Below, one piece after another: positions 13,590 through 37,251 of a stretch of DNA of 64,000 nucleotides. Positions within the stretch are counted from its first letter, which is position 1, and each line of letters opens with the position of its first letter. Origin of the DNA: Akkermansia sp. RCC_12PD (GTDB taxonomy: Bacteria > Verrucomicrobiota > Verrucomicrobiia > Verrucomicrobiales > Akkermansiaceae); assembly GCF_036417355.1 (NCBI RefSeq), contig NZ_CP143889.1, positions 682,001-746,000 of the forward strand, given 5' to 3'. Below the pieces are notes generated by a model. It was not told the origin of the DNA and ran no database searches. It saw nothing but the letters and a program-made list of their open reading frames with translations. A program made the position numbers and the translations under genes.

Positions 13590-15012
13590 TCAATCCTTCC
13601 TTGCCGGCGGCAAAACCTTTCCATTGAAATAAACGGTAAATCTCTGGCACAGGGCGGAGCGTTGATACAAACCCGAATCCTCCATCGCTTTTAATACGAG
13701 AGCATACCGGCCCGGGCGGGAAACGACAATGGCATCATAATCTGACCAATAATTCGCCAGAGGCTGAAAACGCCATCCATAAAATTCCCCTCTAAACTTA
13801 TTGCAAAGGAGAAGAACCTTCATTCCTTTCTGCTGCAATGATTTGCAATAGGAAACAGCCTCCCGGTAATTTTCCCGGCTATAAATACCGCAAAAACGAA
13901 TACGGAAATCGCTTGCCAGCCAGACAATCATCATCAGGATAAACAGAACAACCCGGCACCGGTCGGAAAACTTCCAGTTCTGGGGCCATACCTTGGACCA
14001 AATCAGGCACAATACAGGCAGCAGAGGAGCGCAATGTCTGCCGGAAAACCGGAAATCCATGGCTTCCGTTCCATAAAGAAACACAATTCCGGGAACCAGC
14101 ACAAGAGCAAAGAGCGCCCATGGCAATGATCTGGAGGATTGCCTGCTCCACAATACAACTCCATAAATCAGGGTGCCAATCATGACTAGAGCGACAATAC
14201 CTCCAAAAAACAATCCTTCCATCTTCCATAAGGAATCCAGGGTCGTACACAGTCTTAACTCGGCGCGCGGAGGCCCCAGCCCTGCCAGTCCCATGAGTTC
14301 ATACAAGGATGCGGCCACATTAACAACCCAGCTGGAAGATATCACAACGGAACGGGCCCCGAGGGAAAGGGTATAGACATAATACGCGGCTAGCCCTGCA
14401 AACGGAAAAATCCAGCAAAATACGGCCTTCCAAAAACTCCGTCCTTTGAACTGCCGGAATGACAAGATGAAAAATGCAGCCATAAAGCCGAAACCCCATA
14501 CAACCCCCGTCAGGCTTGTCAGGCACAGAAAAAACAAGGACCCAAAAATGGCATGGAACCTTGGCGAATGCCCTCTGCTGGCTTGATAAAGCAGCATGGT
14601 TACCCCCGCAGGAAGCAGCAATTTGTAAAATATAAGGGCGCAGTTCTTCAGTATAATAAATAAAAAACGGGGAAAGCAGTAGAATGACCAGGACTTTCGG
14701 CTCCTTTCTGAAGAACCAAGCTGCCAGAAAAACCCAGACCCCATTGAACAGGCGAAGAGCCAGCTCGGATTCGGCTCCCGTCACCTGATGCCACAAAAAC
14801 AAAAGATAGTAATAAAAAGCAATCTGGGCATCACTTCCCCCAATTCGGCAAATTTGCCGCCAGCATTCTTCCAGGCTCGGCTGTACAGCACACAATGCTG
14901 TACAGCATTCATCAATCCAAAAACTCTGGTTATGAAATGAAAAACAGCACGACAGGAAAGATAAAACCAGCCAATTGTACTTTGCCCACCAGCCGCTACA
15001 TTCCTTCTGCAT
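13590..15012 (-). pseudogene. GT-C-type (ArnT-like) membrane glycosyltransferase, broken by one frameshift
   Basis: Two overlapping minus-strand frames together encode one polytopic membrane protein. The first (ATG 15012, or TTG 15039) has an early acidic motif FWIDECCTAL, as in GT39/ArnT-type enzymes, and ends its meaningful part at YYTEELRPYILQIAAS. The second, open to 13590, takes up with GVTMLLYQASRGHSP and continues through about seven hydrophobic helices to a soluble C-terminal domain. They join exactly if one G is removed from the five-G run (forward CCCCC at 14603-14607). This is either a real inactivating insertion, a slippage site or a sequencing error. Base composition is lower in GC than the neighbours. 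If intact it would transfer a sugar from a polyprenyl-phosphate donor. Confidence 0.75.
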
Positions 15013-15258
15013 TGCACAAGGAACATAGTAGATTGCCAAATTGGTTCAAACTAAACAAAAAAATTAGAGAGAACCAACGACAACCGGAATGGCAACAGTA
15101 ATGAAAATCTTTTCAGTCCATTTCCGACCAGCTCCGCAATCCTTCCCTGCTTGCGTCCATTTGCGGTACCTCTCCATGGCAGGCCCCCGCACGCATGACA
15201 TCCGGAATCGGCCATCCGTAAAAAACCGGTAGGTATTGTAAAGACAGGCAGGAGAATA

Positions 15259-24900: not shown

Positions 24901-26610
24901 TTGCAAACGCCTTTTCCTTTGAAAGAAAACATTTGTGGAAGCTTCATTTTACTTTTAAGCCGGCACCCTTTTCTTTTAAATATTTTCCTACTGGGGTGCT
25001 CTTTTCTGTTCATTCCGCGGTTTTCAACCAATGACGACCCTATCCTGGCCTACCTGATCTATTCAGGCTCCCATCATCTTGCTCTCTGCATGCATCCATT
25101 AATGTCATGGATTCTGCATACTGTCAGCCTGGCTTCTCCAGAACTCCCCGTTCTTTTTCTGATGGAAACACTCATTAATTTCGTTTCCATCTACCTTCTT
25201 CTGAAAAGCGTCATCCACCATTTGTCTGCCAAAACGCCTCCTATACTGTTCATTTTTACCATTTTCACCATCAGTTTTTACGCTTTATACAACTATATCC
25301 AGCCTCAATTCACACAATGTGCAGGGCTGGCCATGGCGTCTGCAATATGTTTTTATACCGTTTCTCAAACTTGGAAAAACCGTTTATTTTGCACTCTATG
25401 GTTTCTTGCGGGCTGTACTGTACGGCTTGACATGATTTACGCCATCATCCCGTTCACAGGCTTTCTGGCCTTACAGGAGTGGATCCGGCTGATTCAACAT
25501 AAAAAAAACCGTGCCAGCCATCACTCCTTCTCATGGAGCCTATTTCTGGTAATTACCCTAGCAGCTATTCCTTTACTGAGCATGGGAGAAAAACTCGCGT
25601 ACAACCTTTCTCCCGGTTGGGAAAACGGTCTCCATTTCAACCACCAAAGAGCCTTGATCTGTGATTACCCGGATTATTCAGGCATGGATAAATCCCTGGA
25701 AATCTCCGCCCAGACAGGTCTTTCCACCGTTGAATGGAATATGCTCAAGAATTTTGAATACGTTCCACAACTGGCACAACAAACAAACATGATTGACCAG
25801 CTGGCCTCTATTCACCGGGAAGGCAATACCATGGAAACAAAAATGATTCATGCAAAAGATCATTTCCCGGCGGTCGGAAACGCCATTCCTCTTCTTTTTC
25901 CCATCATCGGCTTGCTGCTGACTGGAATGATCTGCATCCGCAGGGTCAATTATTCCTTTTGGTCATATCCATGCATAGCATTCTCCCTCATCATTCTTTT
26001 TCTTTTCATGGGAAGAGTTTACAACAGAGTGCTGTACGCTCCACTTCTGCTGTGCTTCGTCCTAATGGCCATCTCCCTGAATAATAATATACAATGGAAA
26101 AAAATCCCGGGGAAAGTGTGCATATTCCTGTCCATGCTCATCATGGCAGGACTGTTCCTGAATAGTCAGGGGAAAATTCTTGGGGGCGTCATTAAAAGGA
26201 CATTCACTAAAGAGCAGAGGGAAAGCAAAGTCGTTTTCGATTACCTCACCATGCATCCTGAAAAAATATTTATCTCTTTTGACGCCTTTTCCACCTTTGA
26301 GGAGGCGCTTGCCGTAAGCCGCCGGAATTTCCTCCGAACCGACCATGTTATCAATTGCACGGGCTGGCATATGTGGAATCCGACTTTTCAGGAGCAATTG
26401 GACAGGAATTCCATCACGGATCCCTACCTTGCCTTGTATCAGGATCACGTCAGATTTATACAAAAAGGGGTGGAAACTCCCGCAATCCTGCCCTATTTGG
26501 AACATCATCTGGGAATTAAAACAAAAGCAATCTTATGCGATTCATTGGGCTCTTACCGAATTTACCGAATACAGAAGGATACTGAGTTTTCCCTTATTAA
26601 ATCGAACTAA
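24901..26610 (+). CDS. Polytopic membrane protein, GT-C glycosyltransferase-like
   Basis: About 569 residues with roughly ten hydrophobic helices and a soluble C-terminal domain. Near the first helix is FSTNDDPILAYLIYSG, matching YQSNDDLVIASVLDG in the protein at 30687-32462; both also share a TVRLDMIYA / MIRLDAALV segment and the C-terminal YRIYRI / VRIYRLR. Acidic residues after the first helix are typical of GT-C enzymes, which use polyprenyl-phosphate sugars. It is therefore probably a sugar transferase, but the function is inferred. The start is uncertain: TTG 24901 is the first available, without a good ribosome site. Composition is markedly AT-rich compared with the window, a sign of transfer. 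Confidence 0.6.
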   Translation: MQTPFPLKENICGSFILLLSRHPFLLNIFLLGCSFLFIPRFSTNDDPILAYLIYSGSHHLALCMHPLMSWILHTVSLASPELPVLFLMETLINFVSIYLLLKSVIHHLSAKTPPILFIFTIFTISFYALYNYIQPQFTQCAGLAMASAICFYTVSQTWKNRLFCTLWFLAGCTVRLDMIYAIIPFTGFLALQEWIRLIQHKKNRASHHSFSWSLFLVITLAAIPLLSMGEKLAYNLSPGWENGLHFNHQRALICDYPDYSGMDKSLEISAQTGLSTVEWNMLKNFEYVPQLAQQTNMIDQLASIHREGNTMETKMIHAKDHFPAVGNAIPLLFPIIGLLLTGMICIRRVNYSFWSYPCIAFSLIILFLFMGRVYNRVLYAPLLLCFVLMAISLNNNIQWKKIPGKVCIFLSMLIMAGLFLNSQGKILGGVIKRTFTKEQRESKVVFDYLTMHPEKIFISFDAFSTFEEALAVSRRNFLRTDHVINCTGWHMWNPTFQEQLDRNSITDPYLALYQDHVRFIQKGVETPAILPYLEHHLGIKTKAILCDSLGSYRIYRIQKDTEFSLIKSN

Positions 26611-30608: not shown

Positions 30609-30637
30609 AGGGGCCAACAGACTGCTCCTTTTTTCAT

Positions 30638-30667
30638 CCCCCGGTCCGTCAACCGGGGGATTTTTAT
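30638..30667 (+). terminator. Rho-independent terminator
   Basis: CCCCCGGT (30638-30645) / ACCGGGGG (30652-30659), six-base loop, followed by ATTTTTATT. Ends the secreted-protein gene; it faces the convergent operon at 30687. Confidence 0.85.
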
Positions 30668-30686: not shown

Positions 30687-32462
30687 TTATAAAACCGGAG
30701 AACGTTCCCTGCCGGGCTGGAACCAGGTCTTCCGAAGGCGGTAAATGCGCACCCCCTCAATATTCTCATCCAGGTGCCACGCCGTGCGGATACCGTGGTG
30801 TTCCCATATGTGGCGGCAAAGCATCGTAAAAAATTTCCTGTCCATATCGGAAAGATCTCCCTGGGGCGTCAGACAGACGATATAGACGTTATCCCGGCAA
30901 AGATTCAGGGCAGTCTGTCCGTCCCAGCCCATTTCCTGCAACTTTTTCTGCACGGGCTTCAGCGGGAAATTCCATCCGCCCAGCGTCACCACATTCTTCC
31001 GGGAACAGCTCCACGCCTTGCGGAAAACGGATTGCCCGGGAGCCAGGTCATCAATAGTTCCGCCGGACATCTGCACACAAAACAGGGAATCCGGCTCCCG
31101 GTCCACCCGTTCGCAAAGCAGCCGTCCGGCCTCCGGCGAAAACGACTCCATATTGGCCTCCCAAACGGCGGCGCACGCCTGAGAGAGGGAGACGGCAAAC
31201 GCGCAGAATATGGGCAAGCCGCCCGTCAAAGCCCCCTTCCCCGTCCACTTGACGTGGACGGACTGGAAATGCTCCGGTCTGAGCAGGCATAACCCGGCAA
31301 TCAGGAATGTGGGATACACCACCCGGAAATACAGGCGGTCTATGCTGGCCATGTACAATAAAACAAGCACCAAAAGGCCGCCTACGCACCACAGGAGCGC
31401 CGGAGAATCCCCACGGCGGAAAGATGCGCGGCAGGCCAGTCCAAACAGAATCCAGCAAGGCAGGAGATCCACAATGGAATCCCAGGAAAACAAATGCAGG
31501 GCCTTTTTTCCGCGAATCCACATCCTGGGCCAGAAATCATTCCCGTCCCGCGCCAGCCTGAGTCTTCTCAGATAATCGGTGTTGAACACTTCCATGTCGC
31601 AATTCGTGAACATTTGCACCATTTTGATATCGTTGGCAAACACCCTGTAGGAAGCGCATTCGTACTCGTTCTCGGAACGGATGGGAGACGTGTCGGACAA
31701 CAGGGCGCGGGCCTCATTCCAGGCAGCCACGTCACATCCCTCAAACACGCTGCGGTGGGCATGCCTGTTGTATCCGTTCAACCCGTAGGAAAAAGCAAAC
31801 ACGCATGCCAGGGCTCCCCACAGGCGTCCCCGGGAACGCAGCTTTTCCCAGGAGGGACGGAACCCGTCCATACTCCCCGCCACCAGCACCGCCCCGAAAA
31901 AAGCATCACACACCAGAGCAGCATCCAGCCTGATCATGCTCCCCAAGACACACAAAAAGACACCTGCAGCCAGCTTCCACCAAGATGAGGAACCATGCTT
32001 CAGGCAGATAAGCACACCGGTGAACCCCACGAGAAATGCGGCATGGCTGAACTGCAGGGCGGCATAAAAACCGGGCATGATCAGCAACCATACCAGCAAC
32101 AGCACAAGCGTCGTGAAATCATAGCTGCGCGCCTTGCGGGCATGCGCCGTAAGCATCGTGAAAATGGCGGCTCCGCTGGACAACGTGGCAACAGCCAGAA
32201 ACACCGGCCAGACGGACAATCCACCCAGAACGGGGGCGGCCACCAGAAGGGACCTCGTCAGAAGGGGATTGACAAAAATGACGTGCGCATCGGCATAGGA
32301 AGGATCGCCCCACCCGTCCAGCACGGAAGCGATCACCAAATCGTCATTGGACTGATAAGCAACCCCGGCAATACTCCAGGCAAGAACCAGCAGAATGATA
32401 TTAAACCATACCGGATGAAGCAGGGGCAAAAACGATATCCATCTCCAAACCTGTTTCATCAT
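30687..32462 (-). CDS. Polytopic membrane protein, GT-C/ArnT-like glycosyltransferase
   Basis: About 591 residues with roughly ten hydrophobic helices and a soluble C-terminal domain (last about 180 residues). Close to the first helix is YQSNDDLVIASVLDG, with acidic residues where GT-C enzymes bind the metal or polyprenyl-phosphate sugar. It resembles the protein at 24901-26610 along its length. It is the last gene of a minus-strand run that also encodes a sugar aminotransferase, an acetyltransferase, a polyprenyl-phosphate glycosyltransferase and a flippase-like pair, so it is probably the final periplasmic transferase. The start at ATG 32462 is preferred; GTG 32507 is also possible. Confidence 0.65.
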   Translation of the reverse strand: MMKQVWRWISFLPLLHPVWFNIILLVLAWSIAGVAYQSNDDLVIASVLDGWGDPSYADAHVIFVNPLLTRSLLVAAPVLGGLSVWPVFLAVATLSSGAAIFTMLTAHARKARSYDFTTLVLLLVWLLIMPGFYAALQFSHAAFLVGFTGVLICLKHGSSSWWKLAAGVFLCVLGSMIRLDAALVCDAFFGAVLVAGSMDGFRPSWEKLRSRGRLWGALACVFAFSYGLNGYNRHAHRSVFEGCDVAAWNEARALLSDTSPIRSENEYECASYRVFANDIKMVQMFTNCDMEVFNTDYLRRLRLARDGNDFWPRMWIRGKKALHLFSWDSIVDLLPCWILFGLACRASFRRGDSPALLWCVGGLLVLVLLYMASIDRLYFRVVYPTFLIAGLCLLRPEHFQSVHVKWTGKGALTGGLPIFCAFAVSLSQACAAVWEANMESFSPEAGRLLCERVDREPDSLFCVQMSGGTIDDLAPGQSVFRKAWSCSRKNVVTLGGWNFPLKPVQKKLQEMGWDGQTALNLCRDNVYIVCLTPQGDLSDMDRKFFTMLCRHIWEHHGIRTAWHLDENIEGVRIYRLRKTWFQPGRERSPVL

Positions 32463-32591
32463 AAGCAAATTCCCTGACTGCCCGATCATGGATGCTGGCC
32501 GGGGCACGCATACTAGAAACGGGAAAAACGAAAGTCAAGAGCCGTATCCGTTCCATCCTTTGGCCTTTCGTCCATCAACCGCCCTCGCGCC

Positions 32592-32936
32592 TCAACGGTT
32601 CAGGCAGACAATAATGCCGGTAATGATCAGCAGGTTTCCTACCACCTTGCGCAGCGTCACCGACTTTCCGAAAAAAATGCGGTCAAAAAAAAGGATATAC
32701 ACGTAAGCGGAGCATTCCAACACATTGACCGTAACCATCGGCAGATGGGAAAGGCAGTAAAATGTCAGCAGGCTGCACGCCAAGAAAATGGCATACGCAG
32801 ACACAGTAGCCCGGTTCACGAAATAGGAAAAACCGGACAGCCGCTCATTCATGGCGGACTTTTTCAAAATCACCTGGGAACAGGACGCCATAAAGACGGA
32901 AAACAAGGTCAGGCCGATATAACCCCCCTCATTCAT
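32592..32936 (-). CDS. Small EamA/SMR-type membrane protein (ArnF-like half of a flippase pair)
   Basis: 114 residues, four predicted transmembrane helices. Pattern VILKKSAMN near the first helix and a final NLLIITGIIVCLN helix, as in small EamA/SMR proteins. It overlaps the previous gene by four bases (ATGA), so the two are co-translated, like the ArnE/ArnF pair that flips undecaprenyl-phosphate-aminoarabinose. The surrounding genes support a lipid-linked sugar flippase, but sequence alone cannot prove the substrate. Confidence 0.65.
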   Translation of the reverse strand: MNEGGYIGLTLFSVFMASCSQVILKKSAMNERLSGFSYFVNRATVSAYAIFLACSLLTFYCLSHLPMVTVNVLECSAYVYILFFDRIFFGKSVTLRKVVGNLLIITGIIVCLNR

Positions 32937-33271
32937 GAAGCATCCTCCTCCATGGATACCAGAATAATTCCACCGATGATCATGGCCGCGCCCAGAGCCA
33001 GTGTCCAGGAAAGAGGTTCCCCCAGGCACAGCCATGCCAGCAAAATCCCCCATATCACGACTGAGGAGCGGTTGGCGTACGCCACGCCCAGATTAAACCT
33101 CTTCAGCATGACTTGCCATCCTATGGCGTAAATGCCCAACAGAAACAGCACGCCGCACAGCAGGACATATCTGTGCCAATCCAGCCAGCCATAGGGGGCG
33201 GCCATGCGCCCCATCATCGTATTGAAGGCATAGACAATGAAAAGAAAATGTAAAACCAGATAATTGATCAT
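32933..33271 (-). CDS. Small EamA/SMR-type membrane protein (ArnE-like half of a flippase pair)
   Basis: 112 residues, four predicted transmembrane helices. The last half, GVAYANRSSVVIWGILLAWLCLGEPLSW followed by AAMIIGGIILV, is the classic EamA/SMR signature. It starts 30 bases after the glycosyltransferase gene and overlaps the next small gene by four bases. Likely forms a heterodimer with that protein to move a polyprenyl-phosphate sugar across the inner membrane. Confidence 0.68.
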   Translation of the reverse strand: MINYLVLHFLFIVYAFNTMMGRMAAPYGWLDWHRYVLLCGVLFLLGIYAIGWQVMLKRFNLGVAYANRSSVVIWGILLAWLCLGEPLSWTLALGAAMIIGGIILVSMEEDAS

Positions 33272-33301
33272 GAAAGAGAGAAAAAGACAATGGACGGGAG
33301 A

Positions 33302-34240
33302 TCATTCATAACGCCGGGCCACAATCACGGAAGGCCTGTGCTTGGTTTCCGTGTAAATTTTGGAAATGTAGATGCCAATGACGCCCAGACTCATCAGAAT
33401 AAAGCCGCCAACCAGCCAGACGGAAGCCACGGAGGATGCCCAGCCCGTTGGCGCCACATTATACAGCAACTGCCGCCCCAGAATCCATGCAACATACAGC
33501 ATGGCTACCAAAGTCACCGCCAGCCCGAAATAGGAAATATACACCAGAGGCTTGGCACTGTAGGAAACCACGGAATTGATCGCCAGCGCCATCTTCTTGC
33601 GGAACGTATAAGTCGTAGGGGAGGAGGAAGCCTTCTTCACCGTGCACGGCACCTGCCGGAATCCGGTGGCAACGCACAGACCGAAAAAGAAAGGTTCCCT
33701 GTCCTGAAACTTCAACATCTCACGCACGAACTGGGCACTCATCAGACGCGCTGTAACCATATTCTTCGTGATCTGCTGGTCGGAAAGCAGATTGAACAAG
33801 GTATAAAACAATTCACCGGACACGGCCTCAAAAAAGCCTCCCTTCCTTCTCTCCTGCACGCCATACACTACATCCGCCCCCGTGTCGTCCATTTCCCTGG
33901 AAAAATCCGCCAGCCATTCGGGCGATTCCTCCAGATCGCTGTCAATCAGGAATATCCTCTCCCCACGGGCTTCCTCGCAAGCCACATACATGGCCAGATG
34001 ATGCCCAAAATTGCGGGACAAATCCACCACCCGCACCCTCCGGTCCTTCTCGCGCTCCGCCAGAGCCCGTTCCAGCCCGTCCCTGGGGCAGCCATCATTC
34101 ACCAGCACCACTTCCGTCCGGTCCGGATCGTAACCAGCCGCACGGGCGGCAGAAAAACAGCGGGAACAGAACTCCGCCAAATACTCCCCCGTGCAGTACA
34201 CGGTGGCCGCCATGGACAATTGAATCTGCGGATCAGTCAT
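33302..34240 (-). CDS. GT2 polyprenyl-phosphate sugar transferase (ArnC/GtrB/DPM1-like)
   Basis: 312 residues. N-terminal GT-A domain: VVLVNDGCPRDGLE, VRVVDLSRNFGHHLAMYVAC, and the metal-binding IFLIDSDLEESPEWL (DxD-like). Two transmembrane helices at the C-terminus (about 230-290: ISYFGLAVTLVAMLYVAWILG and LVGGFILMSLGVIGIYISKIY) and the closing YTETKHRPSVIV are typical of GtrB/ArnC enzymes that load a sugar onto undecaprenyl phosphate. The start at 34240 overlaps the acetyltransferase stop (ATGA), so translation is coupled. Confidence 0.88.
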   Translation of the reverse strand: MTDPQIQLSMAATVYCTGEYLAEFCSRCFSAARAAGYDPDRTEVVLVNDGCPRDGLERALAEREKDRRVRVVDLSRNFGHHLAMYVACEEARGERIFLIDSDLEESPEWLADFSREMDDTGADVVYGVQERRKGGFFEAVSGELFYTLFNLLSDQQITKNMVTARLMSAQFVREMLKFQDREPFFFGLCVATGFRQVPCTVKKASSSPTTYTFRKKMALAINSVVSYSAKPLVYISYFGLAVTLVAMLYVAWILGRQLLYNVAPTGWASSVASVWLVGGFILMSLGVIGIYISKIYTETKHRPSVIVARRYE

Positions 34241-34734
34241 AAATCTTTCACATACATCAGAACATGTTTCCTCTCCCCGTTCTTGACGCATTCACCCGTA
34301 TCTTCCGGGGAAAACTCAAAACCCATGCGCTCATGAAAATGAATGGACTTGGCGTTATTCTCCAGAATCCGGGCACACAGGCGTTTCAAACCGAGTTCTT
34401 TTGCGGCAAACCCAATCATCCCTTCATAGGCAAAGGAAGCAGGCCGCAATTCCTGAAAATCCCGGTTATAAATATAAATACCGATTTCGCCCTGACGGGA
34501 ATCCCGGTCAAACCACGGCAAATACACCAACCCGAGCGGGACCTGGTCCGCATAAATCACGCAGGCGCAGGCATTCTCCCCGCGGATGTTTTTCTTCAGC
34601 CATGCATGGTGCTGTTCTTCTGTTACCTGGTCCAGCAGAAAAAAAGGGCTGACCACATCGGAATTGCGCCATGCACGGAGTTGTGCGTGCATGGCTTCGT
34701 CCACGTCGGACACATTGACCAGGCGCAGCTTCAT
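34237..34734 (-). CDS. GNAT acetyltransferase, probably acting on a nucleotide-linked amino sugar
   Basis: 165 residues. RimJ/PseH-type GNAT: RAWRNSDVVSPFF near the N-terminus, IGIYIYNRDF, then GLKRLCARILENNAKSIHFHERMGF, the usual acetyl-CoA/C-terminal region. It overlaps the aminotransferase upstream by four bases and the glycosyltransferase downstream by four bases. Lying between a WecE-type transaminase and a lipid-carrier transferase, it most likely N-acetylates the 4-amino sugar, the role WecD has in E. coli; this is inferred from context, as sequence does not fix the substrate. Confidence 0.75.
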   Translation of the reverse strand: MKLRLVNVSDVDEAMHAQLRAWRNSDVVSPFFLLDQVTEEQHHAWLKKNIRGENACACVIYADQVPLGLVYLPWFDRDSRQGEIGIYIYNRDFQELRPASFAYEGMIGFAAKELGLKRLCARILENNAKSIHFHERMGFEFSPEDTGECVKNGERKHVLMYVKDL

Positions 34735-35873
34735 GACTCCGGCGCTCCTTCCATGCCGAAACCGGCTTTCAACACGCGGCGGCAGCCCTCCGCGCCCAAG
34801 TCATAATACAAGGGCAGCCTGAGCAGGGTATCACTGGTACGGTCCGTGCACTCCATGCTGCCGGAGGTACGCCCGAATTTAACGCCTGCCGGAGCGGAAT
34901 GAAGCGGAATATAATGGAACACGGCCTTGATGCCCCCCTCCGCCAGTTTGGCGATCAGGCTGGTGCGCTCCTCCAGGGAATTGAGGAGAACGTAATACAT
35001 ATGAGCGTTATGCACGCAATCCTCCGGAATGCGGGGGCGTTTCAGCATACCCGCCTTTTCCAGCGGCTCCAGGGCCTGATGGTACATGTTCCACCATTTC
35101 AGCCGCTCACCGTTGATCTCCCGTCCATGTTCCAGCTGGGCATACAGATAGGCGGCCGTCATCTCTCCGGGAAGATAGGAGGACCCTACGTCCACCCAGG
35201 TGTACTTGTCCACCTGTCCCCGGAAAAACTTGGAACGGTTCGTTCCTTTCTCCCGGATAATCTCCGCCCGTTCCATGAATGCGGAATCATTCACCAGCAG
35301 GGCTCCACCCTCGCCGCAAATGACGTTTTTGGTCTCGTGGAAGCTATAACACCCCAAATGTCCGATAGACCCCAGCTTGCGCCCCTTGTAGGAGGAACCC
35401 ACGCCCTGGGCCGCATCTTCAATCACGTACAGATGATGCCTATGGGCGATATCCATGATGGTATCCATCTCGCACGCCACGCCCGCGTAGTGAACCACGC
35501 AAATGGCCCGCGTCCGCTCCGTAATGGCCGCTTCAATCAGCGTCTCGTCAATATTCTGGGTATCCGGCCTGATATCCACGAACACCGGCACCGCGCCGCG
35601 CAGAACGAAGGCGTTTGCGGTGGACACAAACGTATAGGAGGGCATGATGATCTCGTCTCCGGGCCTGCAGCCAATCAGCAGGGCGGCCATTTCCAAGGCG
35701 GCGGTTCCGGAATGGACGAGAAGCGCTTTTTTGGCGCCTGTGCGCTCTACGAGTAACTCATGGCACTTCCGGGTGTATTTGCCATCTCCGGACAAATGGG
35801 CACAATGGATGGCATCCCGAATATAATCCAGCTCGGGACCGTGCTCATGAGGTTGGTTAAAAGGAATATTCAT
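34731..35873 (-). CDS. wecE: dTDP-4-amino-4,6-dideoxygalactose transaminase (WecE-like)
   Basis: 380 residues. DegT/DnrJ/EryC1 PLP aminotransferase. The N-terminus IPFNQPHEHGPELDYIRDAI..LSGDGKYT is the WecE/RffA signature; the PLP lysine is in SFHETKNVICGEGG, with YVIEDAAQGVGSSYKG before it. Family members convert dTDP-4-keto-6-deoxyglucose into dTDP-Fuc4N. The start ATG 35873 fits family N-termini (the frame runs to 35903). First gene of a tightly coupled minus-strand operon down to about 30687. Confidence 0.87.
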   Translation of the reverse strand: MNIPFNQPHEHGPELDYIRDAIHCAHLSGDGKYTRKCHELLVERTGAKKALLVHSGTAALEMAALLIGCRPGDEIIMPSYTFVSTANAFVLRGAVPVFVDIRPDTQNIDETLIEAAITERTRAICVVHYAGVACEMDTIMDIAHRHHLYVIEDAAQGVGSSYKGRKLGSIGHLGCYSFHETKNVICGEGGALLVNDSAFMERAEIIREKGTNRSKFFRGQVDKYTWVDVGSSYLPGEMTAAYLYAQLEHGREINGERLKWWNMYHQALEPLEKAGMLKRPRIPEDCVHNAHMYYVLLNSLEERTSLIAKLAEGGIKAVFHYIPLHSAPAGVKFGRTSGSMECTDRTSDTLLRLPLYYDLGAEGCRRVLKAGFGMEGAPES

Positions 35874-35968: not shown

Positions 35969-37090
35969 CTATACCTTGATGAACGTCCGGTTTTTATACA
36001 GATAATACAGGACGCCCCAGATCAGGGCGTAATTGCATAAATAAAAAACGAACTGCCGCCCGTCGCCGAAACACTCGCTGAATCCGGTAAAAAGCACGCG
36101 CGAAAAATTGCGCGTGGGCGGGCACACCTCCGTCCACATGTACACGAAAATGGCATTGCTCCCTATAACGGAGAAAAAGAACGTCAGCCAGTTAAGCCTC
36201 AGAACATCCGTCAGCACGTAAAACAGGGCCAGAAACAGATAGCACCAGCCGGCGGCCCACAAAACCATGGAACTGGTGAACAACTTCTTGATCATGGGGA
36301 AATCAAGGCTCCAGAAATACCCCAGCGCCAGACAGGCCAGCCCGGCGGCAGCCAGACAGAGCAGCTTTTTCCCGTGCCCCTGGATCTGCTTTAACATCTG
36401 GCCGCCCAGCAATCCAAGCATGGTCATGGCCCCAAAACCGAACTGTCCCAGAATCCACGCGTAATTCGTGCCGTCCTGCCAGGGCCCCATTAGGTACTTG
36501 TCCACAAGCAGGGCCACATTCCTGTCGGGTTCCAGAACTCCCGCTGCGCACGACCCAACGGCAGGATCGGAGAAAGGAACAAACTTCATCACCAGCCAGT
36601 AGGCGGCCAGCAGAATGGCCGTGGCCGCCACCTGCCAGCGTATGGACAAATTCAGCAGGCAGATGGCCGCAATCAGATAGCCTGAAGCAATGGCCTGAAG
36701 AGTATTGCAGTACAGCGACATCTTGTCCGGCTCAAAACTCAGCAGGTTGCCCTGCACCACCATTCCCAGCAAAAACAGCACCACCACCCGTTTAATTACC
36801 TTGAAATAAATCTTCCATACGGGTTCCGAACCGATGCGCCGACCAAAGGAAAACGGCATGGCCGTACCCACAATGAACAGGAAAAGCGGCATCACCAGAT
36901 CCCAGGCCGCAAACCCCTCCCACTGGACGTGCGCGGCATGTTTCAGCAGCCATGCGGGGCTCTTCTCATAAAACAGGTTGATGCCGGCAACGACAAGAGC
37001 CAGCCCCCCGGTTAAAAAAAACATGTCGAAACCTCGCAGTGCATCAATGGCGGCGATCCTCTGCGGCCGGGTATCAGGTGCTGAATCCAT
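35969..37090 (-). CDS. DUF5009/HGSNAT-like membrane acyltransferase
   Basis: 373 residues from ATG 37090 with about ten transmembrane helices. The N-terminal RIAAIDALRGFDMFFLTGG and WDLVMPLFLFIVGTAMPFSFGRR are the signatures of the heparan-alpha-glucosaminide N-acetyltransferase-like (YeiB/NagX-type) family, which acetylates sugars across a membrane. An alternative start at ATG 37198 adds 36 residues and has AAGGAG close by. A related protein is encoded at 58563-59660. Lies upstream of the aminotransferase operon, with a gap of 95 bases, so co-regulation is possible. Confidence 0.8.
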   Translation of the reverse strand: MDSAPDTRPQRIAAIDALRGFDMFFLTGGLALVVAGINLFYEKSPAWLLKHAAHVQWEGFAAWDLVMPLFLFIVGTAMPFSFGRRIGSEPVWKIYFKVIKRVVVLFLLGMVVQGNLLSFEPDKMSLYCNTLQAIASGYLIAAICLLNLSIRWQVAATAILLAAYWLVMKFVPFSDPAVGSCAAGVLEPDRNVALLVDKYLMGPWQDGTNYAWILGQFGFGAMTMLGLLGGQMLKQIQGHGKKLLCLAAAGLACLALGYFWSLDFPMIKKLFTSSMVLWAAGWCYLFLALFYVLTDVLRLNWLTFFFSVIGSNAIFVYMWTEVCPPTRNFSRVLFTGFSECFGDGRQFVFYLCNYALIWGVLYYLYKNRTFIKV

Positions 37091-37251
37091 GGCAATATTC
37101 CCAATACGGAAATCAGGCGTCCAATCTTTCCCTCTTCCGGAAAGAAAAAACGGCTTTCTCTTTTCCTGTTTTCCGCGGAAACCAAGCAACTCTGTCATGA
37201 TCTCCTTGTGCGTATCCTTCCCGGAAACAAACGTGGTACCATAGACTTCAC

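Follow-up and report, generated by a model that had tools for sequence, protein, structure and literature searches.

Three-component glycosylation systems, among them GtrA/GtrB/Gtr for O-antigen glucosylation and the GT136 pentofuranose systems, combine a polyprenyl-phosphate glycosyltransferase with a flippase and a GT-C glycosyltransferase (PMC11127046, in the sections available). The Arn system (ArnBCADTEF) leads from a transaminase and an acyl group on the amine through an ArnC-like transferase to a paired small flippase and an ArnT-fold transferase. In the pathway of enterobacterial common antigen (ECA), the deoxythymidine diphosphate (dTDP) form of 4-acetamido-4,6-dideoxygalactose (Fuc4NAc) is handled by RmlA, RmlB, WecE, WecD and WecF. 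Here we analyzed a 64,000-nucleotide stretch of the genome of Akkermansia sp. RCC_12PD (contig NZ_CP143889.1, positions 682,001 to 746,000; hereafter the window), which carries a six-gene operon with likenesses to all three. We consider it probable that this operon encodes a self-contained three-component extracytoplasmic glycosylation system that brings its own donor pathway and works through Fuc4NAc linked to undecaprenyl phosphate (Und-P-Fuc4NAc).

The operon shares the logic of the three-component systems, and their GtrB part is homologous to its own (P0003; Table 1). In contrast to them it brings along a route to a 4-amino-4,6-dideoxy sugar, carries a pair of EmrE-like genes in place of GtrA or MATE proteins, and has a GT-C protein outside the Pfam and NCBIfam families. 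The order of steps is that of Arn, but the route is one of a dTDP-6-deoxyhexose and not of Arn's uridine diphosphate-linked pentose; a GNAT is present and ArnA and ArnD are not in the operon. RmlA, RmlB and WecE are held in common with the ECA pathway, whereas a different GNAT replaces WecD and a GtrB-type transferase takes the sugar that WecF takes in ECA. Neither the chemistry nor the logic of the operon is new, but their combination is, and its GT-C protein is unclassified. No description of it, or of any three-component system fed by WecE or working through Und-P-Fuc4NAc, was found in the open-licence PMC literature. Gene content and order, the WecE and RmlA/RmlB assignments, the GT-C-like model, the conservation of the unit and the linkage of GtrB and WecE in other phyla were computed.

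A probable WecE-type pathway for the donor sugar

The aminotransferase P0001 matches the WecE equivalog model NF008687 of NCBIfam at 613 bits (cut-off 375) and TIGR02379 at 608 bits (cut-off 434.85), and it aligns with the solved WecE structure (PDB 4piw) at 504 bits over residues 3-368. Its scores on the PseC (213 bits), ArnB (202 bits) and DesI (135 bits) models each lie under their own cut-offs, and no sugar aminotransferase model of NCBIfam other than WecE is matched above cut-off. Elsewhere in the genome, rmlB and rmlA adjoin each other (G000:2096929-2098842), with RmlB at 480 bits and RmlA at 484 bits, both over cut-off. Because the WecE match is clear and the genome holds rmlA and rmlB, dTDP-4-amino-4,6-dideoxygalactose (dTDP-Fuc4N) is the likely product: RmlA and RmlB would provide dTDP-4-keto-6-deoxyglucose, which the WecE homologue would convert to dTDP-Fuc4N.

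The GNAT protein scores 60 bits on Pfam PF13302. Its closest NCBIfam model is PseH (63 bits, under the cut-off of 93), and the WecD model, which we take NCBIfam to include, is absent from its matches at E <= 0.05. The gene overlaps its neighbour by four bases on each side. We propose that the protein probably N-acylates dTDP-Fuc4N, most simply with an acetyl group to give dTDP-Fuc4NAc; since PseH stayed under cut-off and no WecD model matched, the N-acetyl step rests on gene position and superfamily. Another 4-amino-4,6-dideoxyhexose, such as 4-amino-4,6-dideoxyglucose (Qui4N), or an acyl group other than acetyl would sit well with a GNAT that matches no specific model, and also with the PglD-like acyltransferases and methyltransferases that stand in place of the GNAT in the related modules described below. 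The height of the WecE score over its cut-off, the failure of every other sugar aminotransferase model and the closeness of P0001 to the solved WecE argue against such a sugar, and we regard this alternative to Fuc4NAc as distinctly improbable.

Proposed loading and flipping of the sugar

P0003 contains a GT2 domain (Pfam PF00535, 71 bits) and aligns at 128 bits with the solved polyprenyl-phosphate transferase sll0501 (PDB 5ekp). It scores 145 bits on the PgfS model and 77 bits on the ArnC model, both under cut-off. By these matches it is predicted to be a GtrB/ArnC/PgfS-like GT2 transferase acting on polyprenyl phosphate. The two small proteins behind it, P0004 and P0005, have four hydrophobic segments apiece and score 30.1 and 28.2 bits on the EamA model (cut-off 28.2). 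We infer that undecaprenyl phosphate serves as the carrier: the GtrB homologue would transfer the sugar to it at the cytoplasmic face, the EmrE-like pair would flip the resulting Und-P-Fuc4NAc, and the GT-C protein would pass the sugar to an acceptor in the periplasm. This agrees with the earlier note on this DNA, which had seen here a full gene set, entered through WecE, to make, load, flip and transfer a 4-amino-4,6-dideoxy sugar. Small open reading frames (ORFs) beside the GtrB gene of another genome, G049, were considered as flippases and rejected, as they match no transporter family and are not EmrE-like.

The six genes form one unit within Akkermansia

All six frames are open in seven related loci that we compared, and the ratios of nonsynonymous to synonymous substitutions (dN/dS) against the window lie between 0.04 and 0.20. 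On these grounds the operon genes are real. In three of the seven loci the GT-C copy ends at residue 585 by its own stop codon.

The GT-C gene was found in 12 of 76 Akkermansia genomes and in 11 of 387 sampled genomes of the phylum, all 11 of them Akkermansia. The earlier note had called for the same gene order in relatives, and the six genes stand in the order of the window in 12/12 GT-C-positive Akkermansia genomes (the window, nine fetched regions, and L061 and L062, which contig coordinates assign to genomes G289 and G431); because the linkage is conserved, the genes are not unlinked among relatives. The flanking genes also agree between the window and these nine regions: one flank has DUF5009 and a small gene, the other BioA, BioB and a hypothetical gene. 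In a first set of 37 Akkermansia genomes, WecE, the operon-type GtrB and the GT-C protein occur together in three genomes and are absent from the rest. As these three are present together or not at all, and the order is kept in all 12 genomes, the six-gene unit is gained or lost whole and tracks one clade. The window GtrB is 86-97% identical to its counterparts in five Akkermansia or Akkermansiaceae records.

GtrB and WecE are linked in other phyla

A scan of named genomes with a GtrB alignment yielded 339 loci (GtrB with flanks of up to 10 kb), the best 80 of which comprise five from Akkermansia and 75 from elsewhere (L066-L140). In these 75, GtrB is 42-52% identical to that of the window; they come mostly from Pseudomonadota but also from cyanobacteria, Deltaproteobacteria, Bacillota and more. 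A WecE-type enzyme (at least 350 bits) lies near GtrB in 61 of them. WecE was found in none of 20 control regions around GtrB paralogues (14 from Akkermansia and six from elsewhere in the order, 27-33% identical to the operon GtrB), three of which hold other DegT enzymes at 110-126 bits; this control is unmatched for taxonomy or length, and eight of its regions are shorter than 19.5 kb.

The shared features of these modules and the operon are GtrB, WecE and, in six loci, a distant GT-C relative. The modules differ from it in their companions, whose counts among the 61 loci are approximate because they come from a simple gene caller and a hydrophobicity count, and whose families were each named from a single member. 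WbqC occurs in 49 of these loci, an unclassified protein of about 307 residues in 43 and a PglD-like hexapeptide acyltransferase in 41; methyltransferases were counted in 37 and 23, and the operon-type GNAT in none. An EmrE- or GtrA-like protein is present in 43 of the 61, and a large ORF with seven or more hydrophobic segments in 53. We rate as evenly balanced the wider proposal that a WecE-fed three-component class, occurring across Verrucomicrobiota, Pseudomonadota, cyanobacteria and others, would put 4-amino-4,6-dideoxyhexoses on undecaprenyl phosphate and transfer them with a GT-C protein of a new family. The Akkermansia version would then be a minimal one of six genes, and Fuc4NAc would occur outside Gammaproteobacteria, having gone unnoticed on the cell surface of a gut symbiont that lives in mucus.

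Several of these loci (L067, L074, L081, L086, L097, L100 and others) share a recurrent cassette of WbqC, GtrB, methyltransferase, PglD-like acyltransferase, the protein of about 307 residues (which has no Pfam family), EmrE or GtrA, and WecE. The sugar product of the WbqC-GtrB-WecE cassette seems to be undescribed. According to the available text of PMC5532660, an exopolysaccharide locus of Pseudomonas stutzeri encodes WbqC, a putative WecE and GT2 proteins together with a Wzx-like translocase. WecE matches are also present in 45 plasmid records.

The last gene encodes a putative GT-C transferase outside Pfam and NCBIfam

P0006 matches no Pfam or NCBIfam family and has no meaningful match in the PDB by sequence. 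A profile built from eight Akkermansia GT-C proteins and the distant paralogue P0007 was run against 7,098 ORFs of the fetched loci and found six relatives outside Akkermansia (L086, L100, L108, L114, L138 and L077; E 1e-6 to 0.01), each the sole match in its genome. Five of the six directly adjoin WecE, and their loci also contain an EmrE-like gene; the one of L108 lies one gene away from WecE. In the reverse direction, a profile of the six relatives recovered nine of the 12 different Akkermansia copies (E 5e-7 to 8e-4) and P0007 (E 4e-8), with the window protein at E 0.087. A ten-row alignment keeps an NDD motif after the first helix, the pattern N-x-x-R-A-x-x-x-D and other columns; L089, with a split GT-C ORF, was excluded from the alignments. 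Across 369 genomes from the class to which L086 belongs, the GT-C profile matched two, both already members of the profile, so the family is rare in that class.

P0007 itself is a lone GT-C-like membrane protein of the window, 21% identical to P0006 (E 4e-7), with no Pfam or NCBIfam family and within a stretch of lower GC (0.448). Elsewhere in the window, two overlapping ORFs in different frames look like one frameshifted GT-C-like membrane protein; they have no Pfam match.

AlphaFold returned a mean predicted local distance difference test score (pLDDT) of 37.8 for P0006 with eight orthologues. With a 15-row alignment that included the distant relatives, the best of five models (pLDDT 50.6 to 70.4), the one used below, reached a pLDDT of 70.4 and a predicted template modelling score (pTM) of 0.77. 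The top Foldseek match of this model is ArnT (E 0.012, probability 0.97). In a second structural comparison, GT-C glycosyltransferases or complexes containing them fill 44 of the top 46 rows (OST/STT3, ArnT, ALG12, Pmt, DPY19, AftD, PglB and Emb); the remaining two are subunit U of the glycosylphosphatidylinositol (GPI) transamidase, and row 47 drops to Z 5.8 over 138 residues. Subunit U shares the GT-C fold. The ArnT structures 5ezm (Z 11.2) and 5f15 (Z 10.9) rank level with those of OST and other GT-C proteins, and since by the structure tool's own note the Z of 12 seen here is one that helical models can reach by chance, we place weight on the uniform class of the matches. The model supports a predicted GT-C fold for P0006, and the fold match names no particular acceptor.

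Relation to the Arn system

The earlier note had described the operon as an analogue of Arn. As an analogy of mechanism this stands, but as kinship it does not: the ArnB (202 bits, cut-off 631), ArnC (77, 529), ArnE (21 for P0004, 92) and ArnF (19 for P0005, 99) models score far under their cut-offs, no ArnT model of NCBIfam was matched, and no ArnA- or ArnD-like gene is among the six operon genes, the rest of the genome not having been searched for them. We rejected membership in Arn on these scores and on the content of the operon. A cationic lipid A modification in the manner of Arn, in which free Fuc4N would reduce polymyxin binding, could draw on ArnT as the top Foldseek match and on the pairing of the small flippase-like genes as in ArnE/ArnF. 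Beside the Arn model scores and the missing ArnA and ArnD, what speaks against it is the GNAT gene, whose four-base overlaps with both neighbours lead us to expect a blocked amine. Polymyxin resistance by Arn depends on the positive charge of the added sugar. An N-acylated sugar lacks this charge, and the available text of PMC12527988 mentions no sugar substituent of lipid A; the polymyxin link is therefore weak. Lipid A phosphate is an unlikely acceptor, and we hold the Arn-like alternative to be very improbable.

Acceptor and meaning of the proposed system

For the proposed Und-P-Fuc4NAc system, our first guess at the acceptor is the outer core of the lipooligosaccharide (LOS) or another surface glycan, with proteins next. 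One group has reported the sugars of A. muciniphila LOS as L-fucose, galactosamine, glucosamine, glucose, mannose, heptose and Kdo (PMC12527988; PMC13135019; available text of both). Assignment of the LOS oligosaccharides was by mass, after deacylation, and the sugars were identified against standards. Fucose plus hexosamine and Fuc4N plus hexose are isomeric and share one formula; for either composition the computed m/z is 1144.332 for OSF, against a reported 1144.357, and 909.742 for OS2, against 909.74 as reported. A Fuc4NAc residue has a computed mass of 187.08 Da, or 145.07 Da once N-deacylated. The composition data, which name no 4-amino-6-deoxy sugar in the text available, count against LOS as the acceptor, but for these reasons not decisively. 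In the available text of PMC13343947, A. massiliensis and A. biwaensis had no detectable exopolysaccharide under the conditions of that capsule study.

The same pathway might instead serve a GT-C protein that glycosylates surface or periplasmic proteins with a single sugar, in a PMT- or OST-like manner. The model resembles structures of OST, PMT, PglB and DPY19 no less than those of ArnT, and the LOS composition was reported, in the text available, without a 4-amino-6-deoxy sugar. A GT-C fold held in common says nothing on the acceptor, however, and the operon has no gene for an acceptor protein; we judge a protein acceptor unlikely.

Several results weigh against the Und-P-Fuc4NAc system as proposed. 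The GNAT is under the cut-off of every specific model and is not WecD. A strong WecE is missing from 14 of the 75 loci (L072, L082, L085, L091, L095, L101, L105, L116, L119, L122, L123, L127, L128 and L133), several of which are short: in L105 and L116 a DegT piece is cut at the contig end, L119 and L127 have a DegT enzyme of another kind, and ten have none. Four of ten genomes with the GtrB module do not have this GT-C protein, and the GT-C link is weak in one direction, as the eight-sequence profile without P0007 gives no relatives but L086 (E 0.017) and L114 (E 0.31). Foldseek found no match of the P0006 model under E 0.001, the Z scores are of a size attainable by chance, and the fold assignment depends on a single predicted model. 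A 4-amino-6-deoxy sugar is not named for A. muciniphila LOS in the available text of the two composition papers.

The surface glycans of A. muciniphila, chiefly LOS, are studied for their effects on host immunity. A survey of 12,939 genomes placed Fuc4NAc in Gammaproteobacteria only (PMC7725333, in the text available). If our proposal is true, the Akkermansia surface bears a sugar that is not in the composition lists as available, and this survey overlooked it, a possible reason being the different acetyltransferase. A GT-C protein outside the Pfam and NCBIfam families, with partners across phyla, makes a testable module.

Layout of the operon and its flanks

The source genome is a single contig of 3.17 Mb. 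The earlier note had placed the six genes at positions 30687 to 35873; the coordinates confirm this, and the genes lie on the minus strand (Table 1). Its remark that most junctions overlap by four bases holds by a bare majority: ATGA overlaps join WecE/GNAT, GNAT/GtrB and EmrE1/EmrE2 (three of five), and gaps of 30 nt and about 129 nt separate GtrB/EmrE1 and EmrE2/GT-C. An alternative upstream start of the GT-C gene, GTG at 32507, is possible. No clear terminator or promoter was found for the operon (promoter-like sites, 6 against 3.7 expected), and the hairpin at 30636-30661 suits a convergent plus-strand gene, not the operon.

Table 1. Coordinates of the operon genes and other features in the window
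Feature	Position	Strand	Basis or remark
P0001, WecE-type aminotransferase, 380 aa	34731..35873	-	NCBIfam models and PDB 4piw match
P0002, GNAT N-acyltransferase, 165 aa	34237..34734	-	Pfam PF13302; proposed substrate, the 4-amino group
P0003, GtrB/ArnC/PgfS-like polyprenyl-phosphate glycosyltransferase, 312 aa	33302..34240	-	Pfam PF00535, PDB 5ekp
P0004, small EmrE/EamA-like protein 1, 112 aa	32933..33271	-	EamA; proposed flippase subunit
P0005, small EmrE/EamA-like protein 2, 114 aa	32592..32936	-	EamA; proposed flippase subunit
P0006, predicted GT-C-fold membrane glycosyltransferase, 591 aa	30687..32462	-	predicted model; no Pfam/NCBIfam family
Hairpin followed by T's	30636-30661		
DUF5009 membrane protein	35969-37228	-	directly upstream of the operon
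P0007, GT-C-like membrane protein	24901-26610	+	distant relative of P0006
Two overlapping ORFs	13590-15039	-	GT-C-like, apparently frameshifted
RHS/YD-repeat-like protein, 2343 aa	37922-44953	-	

The DUF5009 gene lies directly upstream of the operon, on its strand, in 12/12 positive genomes, as seen in the window and nine fetched regions and from coordinates in the other two. We did not adopt it as a seventh component: a homologue is also present in 46 of 64 Akkermansia genomes without the GT-C protein (58 of 76 Akkermansia genomes overall). In five operon-less Akkermansia genomes whose regions were read, none of the six genes lies near DUF5009. The 12 best DUF5009 homologues are those of the 12 GT-C-positive genomes (at least 734 bits; the next 512), as one clade would give, and a role for DUF5009 is conceivable. 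Further along, the window encodes a very large RHS/YD-repeat-like protein with a long serine run near its start; 11 residues near its end form what we take to be a zinc-protease-like motif.

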